Shown: in pieces, positions 36,018 through 44,997 of the stretch
How the letters are laid out: every line of letters starts with the position of its first letter
Position numbering within the stretch: the stretch's first letter is position 1
IMG/VR virus record: IMGVR_UViG_3300018046_000002
Location: 1-47,170 of that record
DNA length: 47,170 bases
Source of the DNA: a virus
Direction: 5' to 3' (one strand)
Made by a program: the position numbers and the translations under genes
Notes under the pieces: model-generated
The model's database searches: none
Told to the model about the DNA's origin: nothing
The model's input: only the letters and a program-made list of their open reading frames with translations

Positions 36018-36206
36018 TCACCAGACTTTCCACCAGGGACGGCGGCGAAGGACGGTGACGTGTATGCTGCCCGAATCGTCAGTTCCGTCGAATACTGTAG
36101 TGCCGGATCTCTGGCGCAAAAATTCTTGCAATTCTGAGCGGACCTGCTTCTGATTTCGCTTCCCGATCAGAATGGAAACCCTGAAATCAATTCTCCTGTT
36201 GTGCAT
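36018..36206 (-). CDS. 62-residue protein ending PWWKVW
   Basis: Basic first half (NRRIDFRVSILIGKRNQKQV), then ELQEFLRQRSGTTVF and SIHVTVLRRRPWWKVW. GGGAGG 8 nt before the ATG. TGATG coupling to the coiled-coil protein upstream. The C-terminal RRPWWKVW resembles the end of the unrelated-looking rightward protein at 45404 (LTPWWKFWE). Function unknown. Confidence 0.5.
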   Translation of the reverse strand: MHNRRIDFRVSILIGKRNQKQVRSELQEFLRQRSGTTVFDGTDDSGSIHVTVLRRRPWWKVW

Positions 36207-36913
36207 CAGCTTCGCCTCCCTGCCGCAATATTGCCTTCTGCCCAGGTATCGACACCGGGAATTTTAGCGGCTTCTTTCATGGATCGGACATATCCGCCGA
36301 TCTTAACCAAGTCCGGCGCTAGAAACTCCCTTGGTATTTTTGAGGCGTCATTAATACGGAATTTCCAGTTGGTTTTCATCGCGATTCCCCCGCCCGTCTC
36401 AACCGTCCGGGCGACAATCGGCGGCGGGATGAAAGCCGGTTCCTCATCCAGAATGGCCTGGGCCTCTTCTGTATCGCCCTCGGCCTCCGCGGCGAGTGCA
36501 TCCGCTAATCTGCGCTCCTCCGCTTCAGCCTCTGCGATTTTCCTTAATCGGGCTTCTTTAAGTTTCCGGAGGCGCTCTTCCTCGATGAGAAACGTACTTA
36601 TGCGGGCCTTGATAAGTTCCTCTGCCCGGATAAGCGGATTTTCCACCTTTTTCTGTTGTGCGATTGCCTCACGGTGGGCGGCGAACGCTTTCTCGATGAT
36701 GGGCTTAAAGGTATCTGCGATTTGCTTGCGCAAGTCCTTAACAGTTAATAGAAGTTCCCGGCCGCGCTCGTAGGTGGGCTTGTCGCTGATGGTGAGAGCA
36801 TCGGCTTGCTGGGAAACTGTGAGGGCCTTTAGTGCTTCCTGCGCACCGGACGGATGTCTCTCTTCCACCGGATTTATTACTTCTACCCCATACCCATTAG
36901 CTTGTGATTCCAT
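36206..36913 (-). CDS. Coiled-coil recombination-cassette protein
   Basis: 235 residues. DALTISDKPTYERGRELLLT and VKDLRKQIADTFKPIIEKAF, then a long coiled coil (AREAIAQQKKVENPLIRAEE; EEERLRKLKEARLRKIAEAE), PPPIVARTVETGG, and a C-terminal domain TNWKFRINDASKIPREFLAP ... AAKIPGVDTWAEGNIAA. This order matches a family encoded beside single-strand annealing proteins and exonucleases in many phages. Role unknown, probably structural or regulatory in recombination. Exonuclease and annealing protein are the next genes upstream. Confidence 0.75.
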   Translation of the reverse strand: MESQANGYGVEVINPVEERHPSGAQEALKALTVSQQADALTISDKPTYERGRELLLTVKDLRKQIADTFKPIIEKAFAAHREAIAQQKKVENPLIRAEELIKARISTFLIEEERLRKLKEARLRKIAEAEAEERRLADALAAEAEGDTEEAQAILDEEPAFIPPPIVARTVETGGGIAMKTNWKFRINDASKIPREFLAPDLVKIGGYVRSMKEAAKIPGVDTWAEGNIAAGRRS

Positions 36914-36934
36914 TAAGTTCTCCCGGTTTTAGCG

Positions 36935-37180
36935 TTACGGGCAATCCACGAAATTTTGCCCATCGTTCATTTCAATGTCGTAGCCAGTTTCTTGCTTTTT
37001 CCTTTGCGGTCCTACCCGGACTCCATCAAGAACGTATGATTGCTCGTACCATTCTGAATATTCTGAATCGGTCATGTCTTCGGGCAACTCATCCTCGTAC
37101 ATCAACGGATTTTCTACGAAATGTTTACAGTTCTTTTCGTGGTACGGATAAGAAGCTCGGCAACACCACCAGTCACCCAT
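36935..37180 (-). CDS. Small acidic four-cysteine protein, unknown function
   Basis: 81 residues. GDWWCCRASYPYHEKNCKHF has C5, C6 and C17, with acidic sequence after (YEDELPEDMTDSEYSEWYEQ). TAATG coupling to the exonuclease gene. Histidine and cysteine positions could bind metal. No family recognised. Confidence 0.5.
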   Translation of the reverse strand: MGDWWCCRASYPYHEKNCKHFVENPLMYEDELPEDMTDSEYSEWYEQSYVLDGVRVGPQRKKQETGYDIEMNDGQNFVDCP

Positions 37181-37737
37181 TAAATCAGTCCCTTCTCTTT
37201 ACGGTAATGGAAAACCGAGACTGCCGATAGGAACACCCCAAGCAGCCTCCGGTCGAATTTGTGAGCCTCCAGCTTGTACGTGCCATCTTCTTTCAGGTGC
37301 AGCATGTAGCCTGTGCGTCCGGGGTTAAACCCATTTGCTCGGAGCAATTCAGCATAGCTTTCGATCTGGATTGCATAGCCCTGGACCCCTTTAATGTCGA
37401 GCAGATATTCGTCGTTCCAACGATCCGGGCAACCGCAAAATCTATACGTTGGGTGCGCTAACGGCTCTTCGATATGCTCCCAATAGGTCATAAAGGTTTC
37501 TTCCTTGAACTTCATGTAGGCGTCAAGAAAGCCCGTAATTCGGGAGTCAACAGAACCCCAATCGAGCGTTCCGTTGTCGATCATGGCCGTTGCTGAATGA
37601 ATCGCCGTACCCCTTTCGAGAAACCAAGGGTCAGCGTTGAAATACCGGACAAGGCCGGTAGCGGCCAAAATCTCCGTAACCCCTGGAAACCGTTGACCAT
37701 CGACAGTGTATTCGTGGGATGCACTTAGTTCGATCAT
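37180..37737 (-). CDS. PD-(D/E)XK exonuclease (RecB/Cas4-like fold)
   Basis: 185 residues. H47 in GTAIHSATAMIDNG, then the catalytic acid in GCPDRW (D105), D114-I-K116 in YLLDIKG, and Q124/Y128 in YAIQIESYAELL form the typical H, D, D-x-K, Q-x3-Y order of RecB-family nucleases. In phage recombination cassettes these 5'-3' exonucleases resect ends for the annealing protein. Its start overlaps the stop of the upstream annealing gene by 4 nt, supporting coordinated expression. Confidence 0.8.
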   Translation of the reverse strand: MIELSASHEYTVDGQRFPGVTEILAATGLVRYFNADPWFLERGTAIHSATAMIDNGTLDWGSVDSRITGFLDAYMKFKEETFMTYWEHIEEPLAHPTYRFCGCPDRWNDEYLLDIKGVQGYAIQIESYAELLRANGFNPGRTGYMLHLKEDGTYKLEAHKFDRRLLGVFLSAVSVFHYRKEKGLI

Positions 37738-38684
37738 TCCGCCCTCTTGACCGGGACAAGTTCAACGATGGTGCTGTATCTACCATCGCTTGTGTAACTC
37801 ACAACAACATCGTTGCCCTTCTCGAACTGAGCGAGTTCGCCGATTTTGGAATCAAATGAACCGTAAACCTGACCGGCTATCTTCACCCCGTATTTTGTCC
37901 ACGCTCCCTTCGGGCCAGTCCCGGTATTAACCGTGACATCTTCGATATTGCCTCGGACGGTCAACGGTCCGGGCTTGCCGTTTGTTTTTGCCTGGGGCTG
38001 CTGGATAGGAGGCTTCGGGTCACCATTCTTGCCGGTAACTGCCGCAATATCATCGTCGTCGAGGTCTTGGCTGAAAATGTCAGAGGCGGCAGTAACGGTC
38101 AAACAAGCATCAACTAGGGCGCGCTTCTTTGCCATCTTAAGGGCCGTGTTGTAAAAGTCGGCCGGATTATCGTGTTCAACCTTTTCGCCTTGGATAGCGA
38201 TCGCCCAAGTGCCCGAGTCATCTTTTTTAGGAACATAGCCCTTGCCGCCAATAAGACTCTGCGCCTTCCCTGGATTTTCTTTTCGAATATCCCAGTATTC
38301 CTTCGGGACTGGCTTGTTGGTCAGCTCGGATGGTCCGGTTCGGAATCTGTACTTCCCTTCCATTGTCGTGCAGGAACCGACACCTGCACCGAGAAACATG
38401 CCATTAGGGGCAGAAAGACGGACCTTTACCCGATATTCACGATGTTCATTTGGCAAGTCGATAACCTCGACATCAGGGTCCGGCACGAGTCGAAAGGTCA
38501 TAATGATTTTTTCAGCACCAGGTTTAAGCAAGGACGGCTTGCCGCTAGTCCCTGGGATAACGCCATAATGCTCGTTAAGGTGCATGACCTCGCGCATGAT
38601 ATTCTGGATCAAGTTCACTTGCGCCTTTACCGCACTCAAATCCATCGGCGGCGGGACACCTTCATAAACCTGGACTTCATTCAT
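37734..38684 (-). CDS. Single-strand annealing-type protein with C-terminal OB-like domain
   Basis: 316 residues from ATG 38684 (AAAGGAGG 5-6 nt upstream). PGAEKIIMTFRLVPDPDVEV, GMFLGAGVGSCTTMEGKYRF, NPADFYNTALKMAKKRALVD followed by ACLTVTAASDIFSQDLDDDD are the core motifs of a phage family found beside exonucleases and proposed to be Rad52-like annealing proteins. After a disordered linker (about 225-245), residues 246-316 (LTVRGNIEDVTVNTGTG; GVKIAGQVYGSF; VVVSYTSDGRYSTIVEL) look like an OB fold. The annealing role is inferred from cassette context. Confidence 0.65.
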   Translation of the reverse strand: MNEVQVYEGVPPPMDLSAVKAQVNLIQNIMREVMHLNEHYGVIPGTSGKPSLLKPGAEKIIMTFRLVPDPDVEVIDLPNEHREYRVKVRLSAPNGMFLGAGVGSCTTMEGKYRFRTGPSELTNKPVPKEYWDIRKENPGKAQSLIGGKGYVPKKDDSGTWAIAIQGEKVEHDNPADFYNTALKMAKKRALVDACLTVTAASDIFSQDLDDDDIAAVTGKNGDPKPPIQQPQAKTNGKPGPLTVRGNIEDVTVNTGTGPKGAWTKYGVKIAGQVYGSFDSKIGELAQFEKGNDVVVSYTSDGRYSTIVELVPVKRAE

Positions 38685-38940
38685 CTGCGTCCTCCTTTGA
38701 TGGTGAGAACTTGGCTTCTGTAGCCAAGGCAATCGCTATTATCTTTTCGTCGGGGATAGGCTCGGTGAACGGCTCGGGCTCCAGTTCGTAATCCACAATC
38801 AGGCTTACCTCTTTCTTGCCGTTCAGAATGGTCACAAGGGTTCTCAGGCAACTCATAAGCTGCTCGGTGTCTATATTGGGCGGCACAACATACTTGTCAC
38901 CGTAATATCCGCCCATGCTCAAAACGCGCTTTTCGATCAT
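38677..38940 (-). CDS. 87-residue protein, unknown function
   Basis: The ATG at 38940 was chosen because AAGGAG lies 6-7 nt away; the one at 38946 abuts it. MIEKRVLSMGGYYGDKYVVP, then TEQLMSCLRTLVTILNGKKE and an acidic C-terminus (DYELEPEPFTEPIPDE). Overlaps the annealing gene by 8 nt. No family recognised. Confidence 0.5.
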   Translation of the reverse strand: MIEKRVLSMGGYYGDKYVVPPNIDTEQLMSCLRTLVTILNGKKEVSLIVDYELEPEPFTEPIPDEKIIAIALATEAKFSPSKEDADE

Positions 38941-40706: not shown

Positions 40707-40934
40707 TTACCCGTCAGCAACAGTCCCATCTAGCCATTTTAGGAAATTTTCAAACCCTTCCTCGGTAATCAGTCTCATGCCATTATCCAACTGGACCACC
40801 GGAATCTCCATATCAAGAATCTTTAAAATTCCCTCATGCGTTGCAACCGGAATCTCAGGATCGTCCGGCAGACGTTCGGCTCCTGTCGGTTTCCAATCAA
40901 CTTGGTCGAGCAATTTTTCGATTGGAACTTTCAT
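40707..40934 (-). CDS. First gene of leftward operon, unknown function
   Basis: 75 residues: MKVPIEKLLDQVDWKPTGAE, then HEGILKILDMEIPVVQLDNG and an acidic helical end. GGGAGGG 6-7 nt before the ATG; the predicted leftward promoter (-10 at 40956-40961) lies just upstream. A small acidic first-gene product would be expressed very early. It could be an inhibitor or regulator; nothing in the sequence decides. Confidence 0.55.
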   Translation of the reverse strand: MKVPIEKLLDQVDWKPTGAERLPDDPEIPVATHEGILKILDMEIPVVQLDNGMRLITEEGFENFLKWLDGTVADG

Positions 40935-40955: not shown

Positions 40956-40983
40956 ATTCTACCACACTGAAAGCTGATTGCAA
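40956..40983 (-). promoter_or_regulatory. Leftward early promoter
   Basis: On the minus strand, TTGCAA (-35, 40978-40983) and TAGAAT (-10, 40956-40961; 5 of 6 consensus) are spaced by 16 nt, about 20 nt before the first leftward gene. The -35 directly abuts the A-tract operator repeat. Confidence 0.6.
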
Positions 40984-41016
40984 CAAAAAAAAGTGAGGCT
41001 CCCACAAAAAAAGTGA
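40983..41016. promoter_or_regulatory. Pair of A-tract operator repeats between divergent promoters
   Basis: ACAAAAAAAAGTGA (40983-40996) and ACAAAAAAAGTGA (41004-41016) are direct repeats whose GTGA ends are exactly 20 bp apart, two helical turns, and lie between both -35 boxes. A regulator bound on one face of the helix would control both directions. The A-tracts also bend DNA. Confidence 0.6.
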
Positions 41017-41023
41017 AAAGGGC

Positions 41024-41052
41024 TTGCAATTTTCTCTCGACGGTGCAAGAAT
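41024..41052 (+). promoter_or_regulatory. Rightward early promoter
   Basis: TTGCAA (-35, 41024-41029), 17-nt spacer, AAGAAT (-10, 41047-41052), about 35 nt before the small HTH gene. CTTGCA...TGCAAG (41023-41049) forms an inverted repeat over the promoter, a possible second operator. The same TTGCAA box is used leftward and again at 43180. Confidence 0.5.
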
Positions 41053-41085: not shown

Positions 41086-41307
41086 ATGATGACAGCACCG
41101 CAATTCAAAGATTTCTGTAAGGATCACGGAGTCGAGATGGGCGAACGCATGGCCTATTATATTTTCGCCGGAAAATCGCACTTTGGGACTGACCGAGCTA
41201 TGATCTTGGCACAATCAACAGATGTGCCTCTTGCTGCATGGCTGAGACCGGAATCCGTCTTTAATAAATACTTGCAACACCTTTTTAAAACTCAGAAGGC
41301 CGGCTAA
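41086..41307 (+). CDS. Small HTH protein (Cro-like regulator candidate)
   Basis: 73 residues. TAPQFKDFCKDHGVEMGERM, AYYIFAGKSHFGTDRAMILA and QSTDVPLAAWLRPES fit a short helical DNA-binding domain of Cro/XRE type, with ILAQSTDVPLAAWL as the later helices (compare A..LAKALGVSP..WL.P). First gene rightward of the divergent promoters, the classic position for a Cro-like switch protein. GGGAGAGAGAGG precedes the start. DNA target probably the repeats at 40983-41016. Confidence 0.6.
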   Translation: MMTAPQFKDFCKDHGVEMGERMAYYIFAGKSHFGTDRAMILAQSTDVPLAAWLRPESVFNKYLQHLFKTQKAG

Positions 41308-41311
41308 CGCT

Positions 41312-41977
41312 ATGATCGAACAGGATGTCACAATACCCGAAATTTGGGAACCGGGTGAGCAGCCGAAGGATTATCTGCTTAAAATTACAATCAAGAATAA
41401 TCTACTTTATAAGGCTATGCTGGCTAAAGGGATACGGAGTGCTGACGAATTAGAAAGGGCTACCGGGATAAATTCACAGACTATAAGGAAATATCTTGCC
41501 CTGTCTGCCGCACCTTTTACTAAACGCACAAAACCCCCAACTTTGAAAAAGACTATTCTCAAGATTGCTCTTTTCTTAGACGCTAGCCCACTCGATCTTT
41601 TCCCCGAACAGCACTGGACAGAACCTCTTCCTCAAAACACCGTTGAGGCCGAAGCTTCACTAGATGAAATCCAACAATGTTTCGAGCCGCCTAAAACGCC
41701 TTATGATTTTCTGGAAATGTCTGAAACGTCTGTGGCGGTGGACAGGGCATTAAGTTTGTTGCCCCCGAAGATTGAGAAGATACTTCGCATGAGGATGGGC
41801 TTTGATGGACCGGCACAGACCCTAGAAGAAATAGGACAGCACTTCACAACCAGCGGGGAGCGCATCAGACAATTGGAAGCTAAGGGATTAAGGATATTAC
41901 GAGGTCCTGCCGTCCGAGTGAAATTAAAGGATTTTGACCCCCGGCGAAATGCCGGCAAGAAGGAAAAGGCACTTTGA
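41312..41977 (+). CDS. Fusion of XRE-type HTH and sigma-70 region 4
   Basis: 221 residues. Residues about 27-100 look like a XRE/Cro domain: NNLLYKAMLAKGIRSADELE, RATGINSQTIRKYLA, then LKKTILKIALFLDASPLDLF. Residues about 140-208 are sigma-70 region 4: VDRALSLLPPKIEKILRMRM-GFDG, then TLEEIGQHFTTSGERIRQLE-AKGLRILR and a KLKDF end as in RpoD. Sigma regions 1-3 are absent. Region 4 contacts the -35 element and the beta flap, so this protein could recruit or redirect host RNA polymerase to sites read by its own HTH. Second gene of the rightward early operon. Confidence 0.75.
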   Translation: MIEQDVTIPEIWEPGEQPKDYLLKITIKNNLLYKAMLAKGIRSADELERATGINSQTIRKYLALSAAPFTKRTKPPTLKKTILKIALFLDASPLDLFPEQHWTEPLPQNTVEAEASLDEIQQCFEPPKTPYDFLEMSETSVAVDRALSLLPPKIEKILRMRMGFDGPAQTLEEIGQHFTTSGERIRQLEAKGLRILRGPAVRVKLKDFDPRRNAGKKEKAL

Positions 41978-43179: not shown

Positions 43180-43208
43180 TTGCAATTTGCCGGGAAGTGT
43201 GAAATAGT
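43180..43208 (+). promoter_or_regulatory. Promoter candidate for replication genes
   Basis: TTGCAA (-35, 43180-43185), 17-nt spacer and AATAGT (-10, 43203-43208). The same -35 hexamer and following TTT occur at the rightward early promoter (41024), suggesting a shared promoter class. It is followed by the short frame at 43246 and the hairpin at 43258. Confidence 0.4.
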
Positions 43209-43245
43209 AAGGATGCTCAGATTTTAAAACAAAGTGAGGATGTAG

Positions 43246-43359
43246 ATGCTAAATAGTAAAAGCGATTATGTGTGGTCGGTAGCCGTTTGGAGCGGTGGGG
43301 AGCCTCAACCCCTGAGCAGGCCGGTCACACATAATCGCTTTTTTTATTTGGAGACATGA
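43246..43359 (+). CDS. Possible 37-residue leader peptide across the hairpin
   Basis: ATG after GTGAGGATGTAG; the frame MLNSKSDYVWSVAVWSGGEP continues through the entire hairpin and ends TGA at 43357-43359, just before the next gene. Translating ribosomes would disrupt the hairpin, giving an attenuation-like arrangement. It has no protein resemblance and may be a chance frame. Confidence 0.3.
   Translation: MLNSKSDYVWSVAVWSGGEPQPLSRPVTHNRFFYLET
43258..43346 (+). ncRNA. Structured RNA closed by a perfect stem and T-run
   Basis: AGCGATTATGTGTG (43261-43274) pairs perfectly with CACACATAATCGCT (43326-43339); flanking AAA/TTT extends it, and GTCGGT/GCCGGT-type pairing with wobbles adds about 6 bp inward. 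A 40-nt apical region has GCCG/CGGT and GGGG/CCCC or CTCA/TGAG options. Seven Ts follow. This is either an intrinsic terminator with an unusually large structured head or a short RNA (about 85 nt) ending at its own terminator. Confidence 0.6.
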
Positions 43360-43361
43360 TT

Positions 43362-43862: not shown

Positions 43863-44997
43863 TCTGAAAATAAAATTGACTGATAGCCGGACGAATGCGA
43901 CAAGAGCGACAACGGTTACAACAGTTACAGGAGCGACAAAAGGCGACAGAGGGTTACAGGAGGTTACAGAGGGCGACAGAGGGCGACAGAGGGCGACAGA
44001 CGATTTTGAGGCCAACTTACGAGCGACAATTCGAATCTGGGTAATGGAATATCCAGGTAAATTCACTACTTCCGACATTGACCGCGAATTAGGGTTGACA
44101 TCTCGGCTTGCAAAGCAAAACCGCTCAAAGTGTTTAGCAGTCTTAGTTTCCGAAGGAATAATCGAGCGTGATTTAAATCGGCGTGGCGTTTTCCGTAAGA
44201 AAGACAATATCTTAACCGAAATGGACATCCTGGGAGCCAAATCCGAGGAGCTTCCTTTCGACTTACCTTTTGGACTATCTAAAGAGATAGAGATAAATAA
44301 TAAAGAAATTATACTTTTTATGGGCGAGACGAACACCGGGAAAACCGCCGTTATATTCAACATGATCTGGTCCTGCCTCCGAACCCTGAAAGCTGAGGGC
44401 CTTCTTCGGGATAAAACTGCTCCTTGCAACAACGGAAATTTTGGAATCAGATATTTTTCATCAGAAATGGGGCCGACCGGAGTTCTTAAAAAACTTTTAT
44501 CTTTCGGCAAAGATTACCCGCCTGAAGAATGGGTCAAGTATGTTTTGTCAGCCGAACGCAACCGGGATTTTCAGGATGTTATCGACCCATGCGGATTTAA
44601 CTTCATCGACTACTTGGAAGTTTTCGATGGAGAGTATTTTAAGCTGTCATCTTGCATCACGGCGATTCATTCAGTTTTGGACACTGGAGTTGCGGTGATT
44701 GCTCTTCAGAAAAAACGAGGCACCGACATAGGCCGGGGCGGTGAAGCGACTCTTGAAAAACCTCGACTTGCCGTAGCTCTTTCGGAAGATAGAGAAAAGG
44801 GCAGGATGACTGCCAAAATCGTGAAAGCTAAACATTACCGGGAACGCAACCCGGCAGGGTTAGAAAAGGACTTTGTGATCCGGCGCCGGGGTACTAAGAT
44901 AATTGAGGTAAGCGATTGGGGATATGCCAAAGACCATCAGGTGCGGCGCAACACGGTTGATTACCACAAACTTTATCTGGATGAAATCTATGGCTGA
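43846..44997 (+). CDS. Replicative RecA-fold ATPase/helicase with winged-helix N-terminus
   Basis: 383 residues. Residues about 1-55 are low complexity because the DNA carries the iterons. Then comes a winged helix (RIWVMEYPGKFTTSDIDREL; LAVLVSEGIIERDLNRRGVF). The RecA/AAA_25-like core has Walker A GETNTGKT (160-167), a hydrophobic Walker B strand ending D-Y-L-E (FNFIDYLEV), and AVIALQKKRGTDIGRGG as sensor. This resembles RepA/DnaB-type hexameric helicases or initiators. With SSB downstream and an array of repeats inside its own gene, an initiator/helicase role is likely, as for lambda O with its origin. Confidence 0.75.
   Translation: MPAPNDLKIKLTDSRTNATRATTVTTVTGATKGDRGLQEVTEGDRGRQRATDDFEANLRATIRIWVMEYPGKFTTSDIDRELGLTSRLAKQNRSKCLAVLVSEGIIERDLNRRGVFRKKDNILTEMDILGAKSEELPFDLPFGLSKEIEINNKEIILFMGETNTGKTAVIFNMIWSCLRTLKAEGLLRDKTAPCNNGNFGIRYFSSEMGPTGVLKKLLSFGKDYPPEEWVKYVLSAERNRDFQDVIDPCGFNFIDYLEVFDGEYFKLSSCITAIHSVLDTGVAVIALQKKRGTDIGRGGEATLEKPRLAVALSEDREKGRMTAKIVKAKHYRERNPAGLEKDFVIRRRGTKIIEVSDWGYAKDHQVRRNTVDYHKLYLDEIYG
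43897..43998 (+). repeat. Iteron array: eleven phased GCGACA/GTTACA hexamers (candidate origin)
   Basis: Hexamers G[CT][GT]ACA begin at 43897, 43906, 43915, 43924, 43933, 43943, 43953, 43963, 43973, 43983 and 43993, i.e. 9-bp then 10-bp spacing. Types alternate in pairs: GCGACA x2, GTTACA x2, GCGACA x2, GTTACA x2, GCGACA x3. The 10-bp steps move the motif through all three reading frames of the ATPase gene, so DNA rather than protein sequence is conserved. Strongly suggests binding sites for an initiator. Confidence 0.85.

Follow-up and report, generated by a model that had tools for sequence, protein, structure and literature searches.

Phages without an RNA polymerase of their own must redirect the host enzyme, and the known phage solutions rely on proteins unrelated to sigma region 4 that remodel it, displace it or mimic it. 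Phage λ CII acts through region 4 of its host, and regulators of the ArpU and RinA type are region 4-like phage proteins without region 2; to our knowledge, no XRE domain is present in ArpU/RinA-type or PHROG_36 proteins. In phage T4, according to the available parts of two sources, the place of region 4 is taken over by AsiA and gp33, which are unrelated to it (PMC6755090, PMC7892883), and at T4 middle promoters, where the −35 contact is lost, reliance on the −10 or extended −10 element still works (PMC6755090).

The window studied here, i.e., the whole 47,170-nt stretch of viral DNA analysed (IMG/VR record IMGVR_UViG_3300018046_000002), contains a gene at 41312–41977 (+) that encodes a 221-aa protein, P0001, in an uninterrupted frame running from ATG to TGA. 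Sequence matches in Pfam, PHROG, NCBIfam and the PDB, the homologues and structure modelling identify it as a fusion of a Cro/CI-type (XRE) DNA-binding domain (residues 26–100, 41387–41611, +) with a sigma70 module comprising the C-terminal helix of region 3.2 and region 4 (residues 127–211, 41690–41944, +). The lone region 4-like domain in a small phage regulator is a likeness to the ArpU/RinA type and PHROG_36 proteins, but, unlike λ CII, the fusion protein brings its own region 4. The proposed replacement of host region 4 at the β flap would be analogous to AsiA/MotA sigma appropriation and to gp33, as far as these sources describe them (PMC6755090, PMC7892883), with the difference that the fusion has a true RpoD-type region 4 joined to a DNA-address domain. 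Both halves are of known kinds, and no description of the XRE–region 4 combination was found in the open-licence PMC literature. The union of an XRE domain, a sigma3.2 helix and an RpoD-type region 4 is an obligate, recurrent architecture, and P0001 may be an early phage transcription regulator acting as an operator-addressed sigma region 4, a reading to which we give a probability of about 0.45.

Domain architecture of P0001

The AlphaFold2 model of full-length P0001, made with 44 family rows, has a mean pLDDT of 91.2 and a pTM of 0.59, which indicates that each domain is predicted confidently but their mutual arrangement is not. The 50 matches listed in a Foldseek search with the whole model were sigma factors in polymerase entries.

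In the C-terminal half, Pfam Sigma70_r4 matched residues 146–197 (E 7.7e-10; score 38.6 bits, cut-off 24.1), the PHROG sigma factor model matched residues 130–213, and a PDB sequence search aligned residues 132–207 with residues 533–609 of the 613-aa E. coli sigma70 chain, the RpoD match running to residue 208. This alignment sets the numbering used below, where Gly182, Glu183 and Arg186 correspond to Arg584, Glu585 and Arg588 of sigma70. Superposition of model residues 127–211 on E. coli sigma70 529–613 gave an rmsd of 1.1–1.2 Å over 84 residues with a Z-score of about 13, and the superposed stretch takes in the helix ending sigma region 3.2 and the whole of RpoD region 4. An earlier sequence-only reading had placed RpoD region 4 at residues 140–208, with an ERIRQ-x-EAK recognition helix, and both assignments agree with these results; the motif reads ERIRQLEAK at residues 183–191 and lies in the region 4.2 recognition helix (residues 182–197, 41855–41902, +), as delimited by the alignment to E. 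coli sigma70 and the family columns. The reading was also correct in describing the protein as free of other sigma regions, since sigma regions 1 and 2 are absent and the Pfam search of P0001 gave neither a region 2 nor a region 3 match. MzaA, the best NCBIfam match, was rejected as a counterpart because the match covers the RpoD-like tail only.

Compared with RpoD, region 4 of P0001 is alike in fold, length, recognition-helix residues and C-terminal helix, but it has Gly at the Arg584 position and is one residue short between helices H2 and H3, and regions 1 to 3.1 are missing, with the XRE domain in their place. Of the parts that characterise a sigma70-family factor, P0001 has region 4 with its −35 helix and does not have region 2, which serves the −10 element and the core.

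A Cro/CI-type helix-turn-helix had been claimed at residues 27–100, and structure prediction confirms an XRE fold at 26–100. In sequence searches, HTH_26 stayed under the Pfam cut-off (residues 34–97, 19 versus 22 bits), the PHROG repressor model PHROG_4 matched residues 23–100 (E 4e-6), a profile search of PDB sequences with the XRE part gave nothing significant and, within the family, HTH_3 and HTH_26 each matched 8 of 44 members at E 0.01. A separate model of residues 1–109 (mean pLDDT 88) aligns at 26–100 with ImmR, SinR, CylR2, C.AhdI, 434 Cro and P22 c2, with Z-scores of 7–8 over about 60–65 residues; a Foldseek search with this model placed C.AhdI and 434 Cro on top at a weak E of 0.055, with none below 0.05. 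Epoxidase and dioxygenase enzymes, e.g., HppE, also appeared among the structures aligned with the 1–109 model; such enzymes carry an XRE-type domain. The assignment to the XRE group is therefore one of structure, the superposition showing the five-helix fold with the helix-turn-helix in helices 2–3, in a protein whose sequence score lies below the curated cut-off. The five-helix DNA-binding fold is shared with the repressors SinR, ImmR, 434 Cro and P22 c2, whereas the fusion has an extra N-terminal strand (residues 21–26 in the full model), the family has a near-invariant Asn opening helix 1, and the chain continues with region 4, not with an oligomerisation domain.

Genomic context

In the window, a predicted divergent promoter region separates a leftward and a rightward arm. 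The rightward operon consists of a 73-aa ORF (41086–41307, +) located 4 nt upstream of the fusion gene, the fusion gene itself, further ORFs, and genes for a DnaB-like ATPase and SSB. The 73-aa ORF has no Pfam match at E 0.1, and sequence searches gave no support for its candidate membership in the XRE family. The first gene leftward of the promoter region is a 75-aa ORF (40707–40934, −) related to PHROG_2384, a family of unknown function (E 2.9e-5), and two exonuclease-like genes and one conserved gene without assigned function lie further leftward at 36206–38732. The start of the 383-aa DnaB-like ATPase gene, at 43900–44000 (+), contains repeated GGCGACAGAG-type units giving a repeated GDRG.

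Two related λ/P22-like contigs, L225 and L229, have a P22-type cro gene that overlaps the fusion gene downstream of it (P22_Cro in L229, Pfam E 9.7e-19; L225 by likeness), followed by a DUF1376 gene and then others, and their leftward arm contains ERF and YqaJ recombination genes (in L229 by Pfam, in L225 by likeness). This arrangement is that of λ, with the fusion taking the place of cII, and the window appears to be laid out similarly. Like λ cII, the fusion gene of L225 and L229 comes second in the rightward early operon, behind cro, but the upstream 73-aa ORF in the window matches no recognised family, and Phage_CII is not among the Pfam matches of P0001, taken up to E 1. By analogy, an activator at the λ cII position would be natural.

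Elsewhere in the family, the fusion gene lies immediately after a family A DNA polymerase gene (e.g., in L024, L032, L047 and L055) or precedes small genes and the large terminase subunit gene (L013, L015, L016 and L042), and PD-(D/E)XK and SNF2 genes are found near some of the loci with a polymerase or terminase context. Neither a tyrosine integrase nor another HTH_3 protein was found in the window. The location ascribed to the gene, just downstream of a divergent switch, is thus right insofar as a divergent promoter region adjoins it, but the switch is not to be read as a lysogeny switch. Tyrosine integrases, the one integrase type searched for, were found in 0 of 21 records, some of which are incomplete, and on this account most members of the fusion family look like non-integrating phages. 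In the same 21 records, which may be incomplete, Sigma70_r2 had no match at E 0.1, while the control was positive in 10 of 14 genomes; T7-type RNA polymerase also gave no match in the 21 records, a search in which the control was silent too.

Promoter-like sites

Three promoter-like sites with a TTGCAA −35 box were identified in the window as consensus matches: a leftward site at 40956–40983 (−), with a 16-nt spacer and TGg-TAGAAT, a rightward site at 41024–41052 (+), with 17 nt and TGc-AAGAAT, which precedes the 73-aa ORF and the fusion gene, and a third site at 43180–43208 (+), with 17 nt and TGa-AATAGT. The boxes, at 40978–40983, 41024–41029 and 43180–43185, had been noticed in the sequence-only reading, and all three are present, each with an extended −10 element 16–17 nt beyond it. 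TTGCAA alone is common in the window (29 matches versus 18 expected), but TTGCAA combined with an extended −10 element was observed three times against a mean of 0.1 in shuffles, and at least three times in 0 of 300 shuffled windows. When any TTGNNN hexamer was allowed with an extended −10 element, three sites were reached in 1 of 300 shuffles, which is the fairer figure, since TTGCAA was picked out from the same sequence. L229 also has two divergent TTGCAA promoters before its cro and fusion genes.

In a set of 85 non-redundant loci, 11 TTGCAA boxes lie 16–18 nt from a −10 element, against 7.5 on average at six incorrect spacings, whereas TTGACA (16 versus 2.8) and TTGACT (12 versus 3.5) were clearly enriched. 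TTGCAA was therefore rejected as a family-wide box, and no special −35 box characterises the family. The suggestion that P0001 reads the TTGCAA boxes accordingly divides into two parts: the sites are suggestive in the phage of the window, and the 85 loci lend the idea no support.

Between the divergent promoters, at 40986–41016, two copies of AAAAAAAGTGA situated 20 nt apart flank an imperfect palindrome, GTGAGGCTCCCAC, which is a candidate operator. About 40 nt downstream of the 43180 promoter-like site, a very stable hairpin with a stem of about 30 bp and a T run is located at 43249–43350 (+); the folding energy for 43240–43360 is −53 kcal/mol (z −7.8; 0 of 200 shuffles as stable). No Rfam family matched there, and the hairpin looks like a small structured RNA or a strong terminator.

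Distribution of the fusion

When IMG/VR was searched with a region 4 alignment, 80 loci were kept, 53 of them full-length viral homologues with an open frame, so the survey of other phages proposed earlier revealed a recurrent family; locus L063, where the match is interrupted by a frame change or stop, was left out. Omission of ten near-identical loci reduced the 53 to 43 homologues (23–43% identity to P0001), which, together with P0001, make up alignment A3. At E 0.01, all 44 members have a Pfam region 4 match, and no region 2 model was among their Pfam matches. No PHROG model was seen to cover both domains in the 44 members; PHROG_36 matches 30 of them and, in the members inspected, corresponds to the region 4 half or little more. 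A scan of viral contigs with the XRE domain only yielded 125 relatives, and at 79 of the best 80, which were kept, region 4 was found in the same ORF, the 80th (L219) being cut mid region 4 by the contig end. This type of XRE domain is thus practically always joined to region 4.

The first scan of viral contigs, with P0001 as a single query, gave no match, and six queries (P0001 and the proteins of L027, L048, L018, L037 and L032), run at 80% cover against 50,697 phage records, detected no fusion. The matches of P0001 in those records are RpoD-like; the five inspected (L002–L006) comprise three complete RpoD proteins and two cut by the record end. Other candidates were rejected: the two matches of L027 with at least 80% cover are annotated rpoD and lie in 254-kb records named 'Acinetobacter phage MD-2021a', while gp2 of Salisaeta icosahedral phage 1 (340 aa) and a 604-aa protein of Vibrio phage 1.255.O, both annotated as sigma factors, were taken as whole sigma factors by length and annotation. 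A scan of genome contigs was dominated by RpoD, with the fusion at one of 80 kept loci (L098, a proteobacterial MAG). The best structural match in BFVD, a 200-aa 'Sigma-70 region 3 domain protein' of an uncultured marine virus, is probably a member of the fusion family under a wrong name. Seven records with related portal proteins (4.7–62.8 kb, incomplete; L097 was left out) contained no full-length homologue, so the fusion gene does not belong invariably to this phage group. The tree of 69 region 4 rows (70 columns), made to ask whether the fusion arose once or several times, gave no resolved branching; one RpoD row was excluded from it and another is 14% filled.

Other region 4 proteins were encountered. 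At L179:1474–2202, in a phage whose portal protein shows 52% identity, a region 4-like domain is fused to what appears by eye to be an HNH nuclease domain. The small region 4 proteins of L058, L059, L060, L067, L069 and L078 open with a different segment, which contains 'IPYGT' or 'TPYGA', and seem from their sequences to be a second kind of region 4-only phage protein. In L056 (4842–5429), a start resembling, by eye, a more classical HTH_3-like repressor is joined to region 4, possibly an independent XRE–region 4 fusion.

Conservation and possible mode of action

Alignment A3 was gathered with region 4 motifs, so the conservation of its recognition helix (H4) is not evidence, and the comparison was repeated on 40 non-redundant members found via the XRE domain only, with the truncated L219 left out. 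In this sample, the recognition helix is the most constant segment of region 4 (mean entropy 0.99 bits), followed by H2 (1.41), H3 (1.80), H1 (2.09) and H5 (2.25), and the XRE helix-turn-helix is variable (2.13 bits); the contrast suggests that region 4 reads something shared by many phages and hosts and the XRE domain something phage-specific. The equivalents of Glu585 (36/40), Arg586 (38/40), Arg588 (38/40) and Gln589 (39/40) are kept, as are those of Arg562 in H2 and of Leu607 (36/40 each), and Phe or Tyr stands at position 563 in 36 of the 40. Portions in or near H1, H2 and H5 of region 4 face the β flap, according to the accessible part of PMC2988021; among these flap-facing parts, H2 and the Leu607 position are well kept in the 40 members and the remainder loosely.

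The reading of P0001 as an operator-addressed region 4 builds on the two domains, their obligate linkage, the constant −35 helix, the early-operon position in three phages and the odd promoters. The XRE domain would bind a phage-specific operator beside certain promoters, region 4 would occupy the −35 element and the β flap tip, displacing the host sigma70's own region 4, and regions 2 and 3 of sigma70 in the same holoenzyme would open the promoter via the extended −10 element. Host polymerase would in this way be steered to phage promoters with poor −35 boxes, and ordinary −35/−10 promoters would be weakened; on its own early promoters, without productive polymerase contact, P0001 could also repress them. 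Since the 21 records yielded no protein with sigma region 2, the polymerase with the host sigma would be the natural partner. Tethering of polymerase or displacement of host region 4 appears compatible with the kept residues, but the constant recognition-helix residues would fit plain −35 DNA binding just as well, and it counts against this explanation that variation in the flap-facing H1 and H5 exceeds that in the DNA helix.

Plain DNA binding is the essence of the main alternative, possible if doubtful, in which the protein is a bivalent repressor, with the XRE domain and region 4 side by side on the operator and the −35 box, excluding sigma70, so that contact with polymerase is irrelevant and the protein serves as a Cro-like autoregulator of early promoters. 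The position of the gene in a PR-type operon beside a divergent promoter pair, its place after P22-type cro in L225 and L229, the −35 box shared by both promoters flanking the operon of the window and the fact that the best-kept region 4 residues are DNA contacts all suit such a repressor. However, a mere −35 binder would need no sigma3.2 helix, H2 or C-terminal helix, all three of which the model contains, the family keeps H2 and the Leu607 position well, and at many loci the gene follows DNA polymerase or precedes terminase and is not at a divergent promoter.

Host shut-off by a decoy, where region 4 on the flap of free holoenzyme weakens host −35/−10 promoters and the XRE domain only keeps some protein on phage DNA, seems improbable; the region 4 fold is complete in the model, and the available parts of PMC6755090 and PMC7892883 offer a parallel in T4 AsiA and gp33, but the recognition helix, useless to a pure decoy, is the most constant part of region 4. 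It is highly improbable that P0001, which has no region 2, is one half of a split sigma factor whose phage or host partner carries that region, like T4 gp55 with gp33, given that Sigma70_r2 was absent from the 21 possibly incomplete records, a search that a very diverged gp55-like partner would escape.

The operator-addressed reading can be taken further, to a new class of regulators in which a region 4 cut from RpoD is carried by an XRE domain to phage operators and replaces host region 4 in the holoenzyme, with the −35 preferences of the members re-tuned and, here, Gly in place of Arg584 paired with A at −31; in this full form the proposal is rather unlikely. According to the available part of PMC2613000, Arg584 of sigma70 reads −31, and the R584A variant prefers A:T there, so that Gly at this position would go with the −31 A of the three TTGCAA boxes. 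Among the base-contact positions, 584 is the one that differs between family members (Arg in 19 and Lys in 8 of the 40, other residues in the remainder), and members would accordingly have re-tuned −35 preferences. Co-variation of residue 584 with the −31 base was sought and showed no trend, and L229, with its two TTGCAA promoters, has Arg at 584. L025, the second member with a Gly584 equivalent, has one promoter-like site.

As many uncultivated phages carry this joined protein, the XRE–sigma region 4 fusion seems to represent a kind of phage transcription regulator that has gone unstudied. A true RpoD-type region 4 has seemingly been captured and fused to a repressor domain, a design repeated across these phages. 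It provides a small two-domain object for asking whether region 4 can function when separated from the other parts of sigma, and the family allows asking whether one residue, 584, sets the −35 choice in nature.
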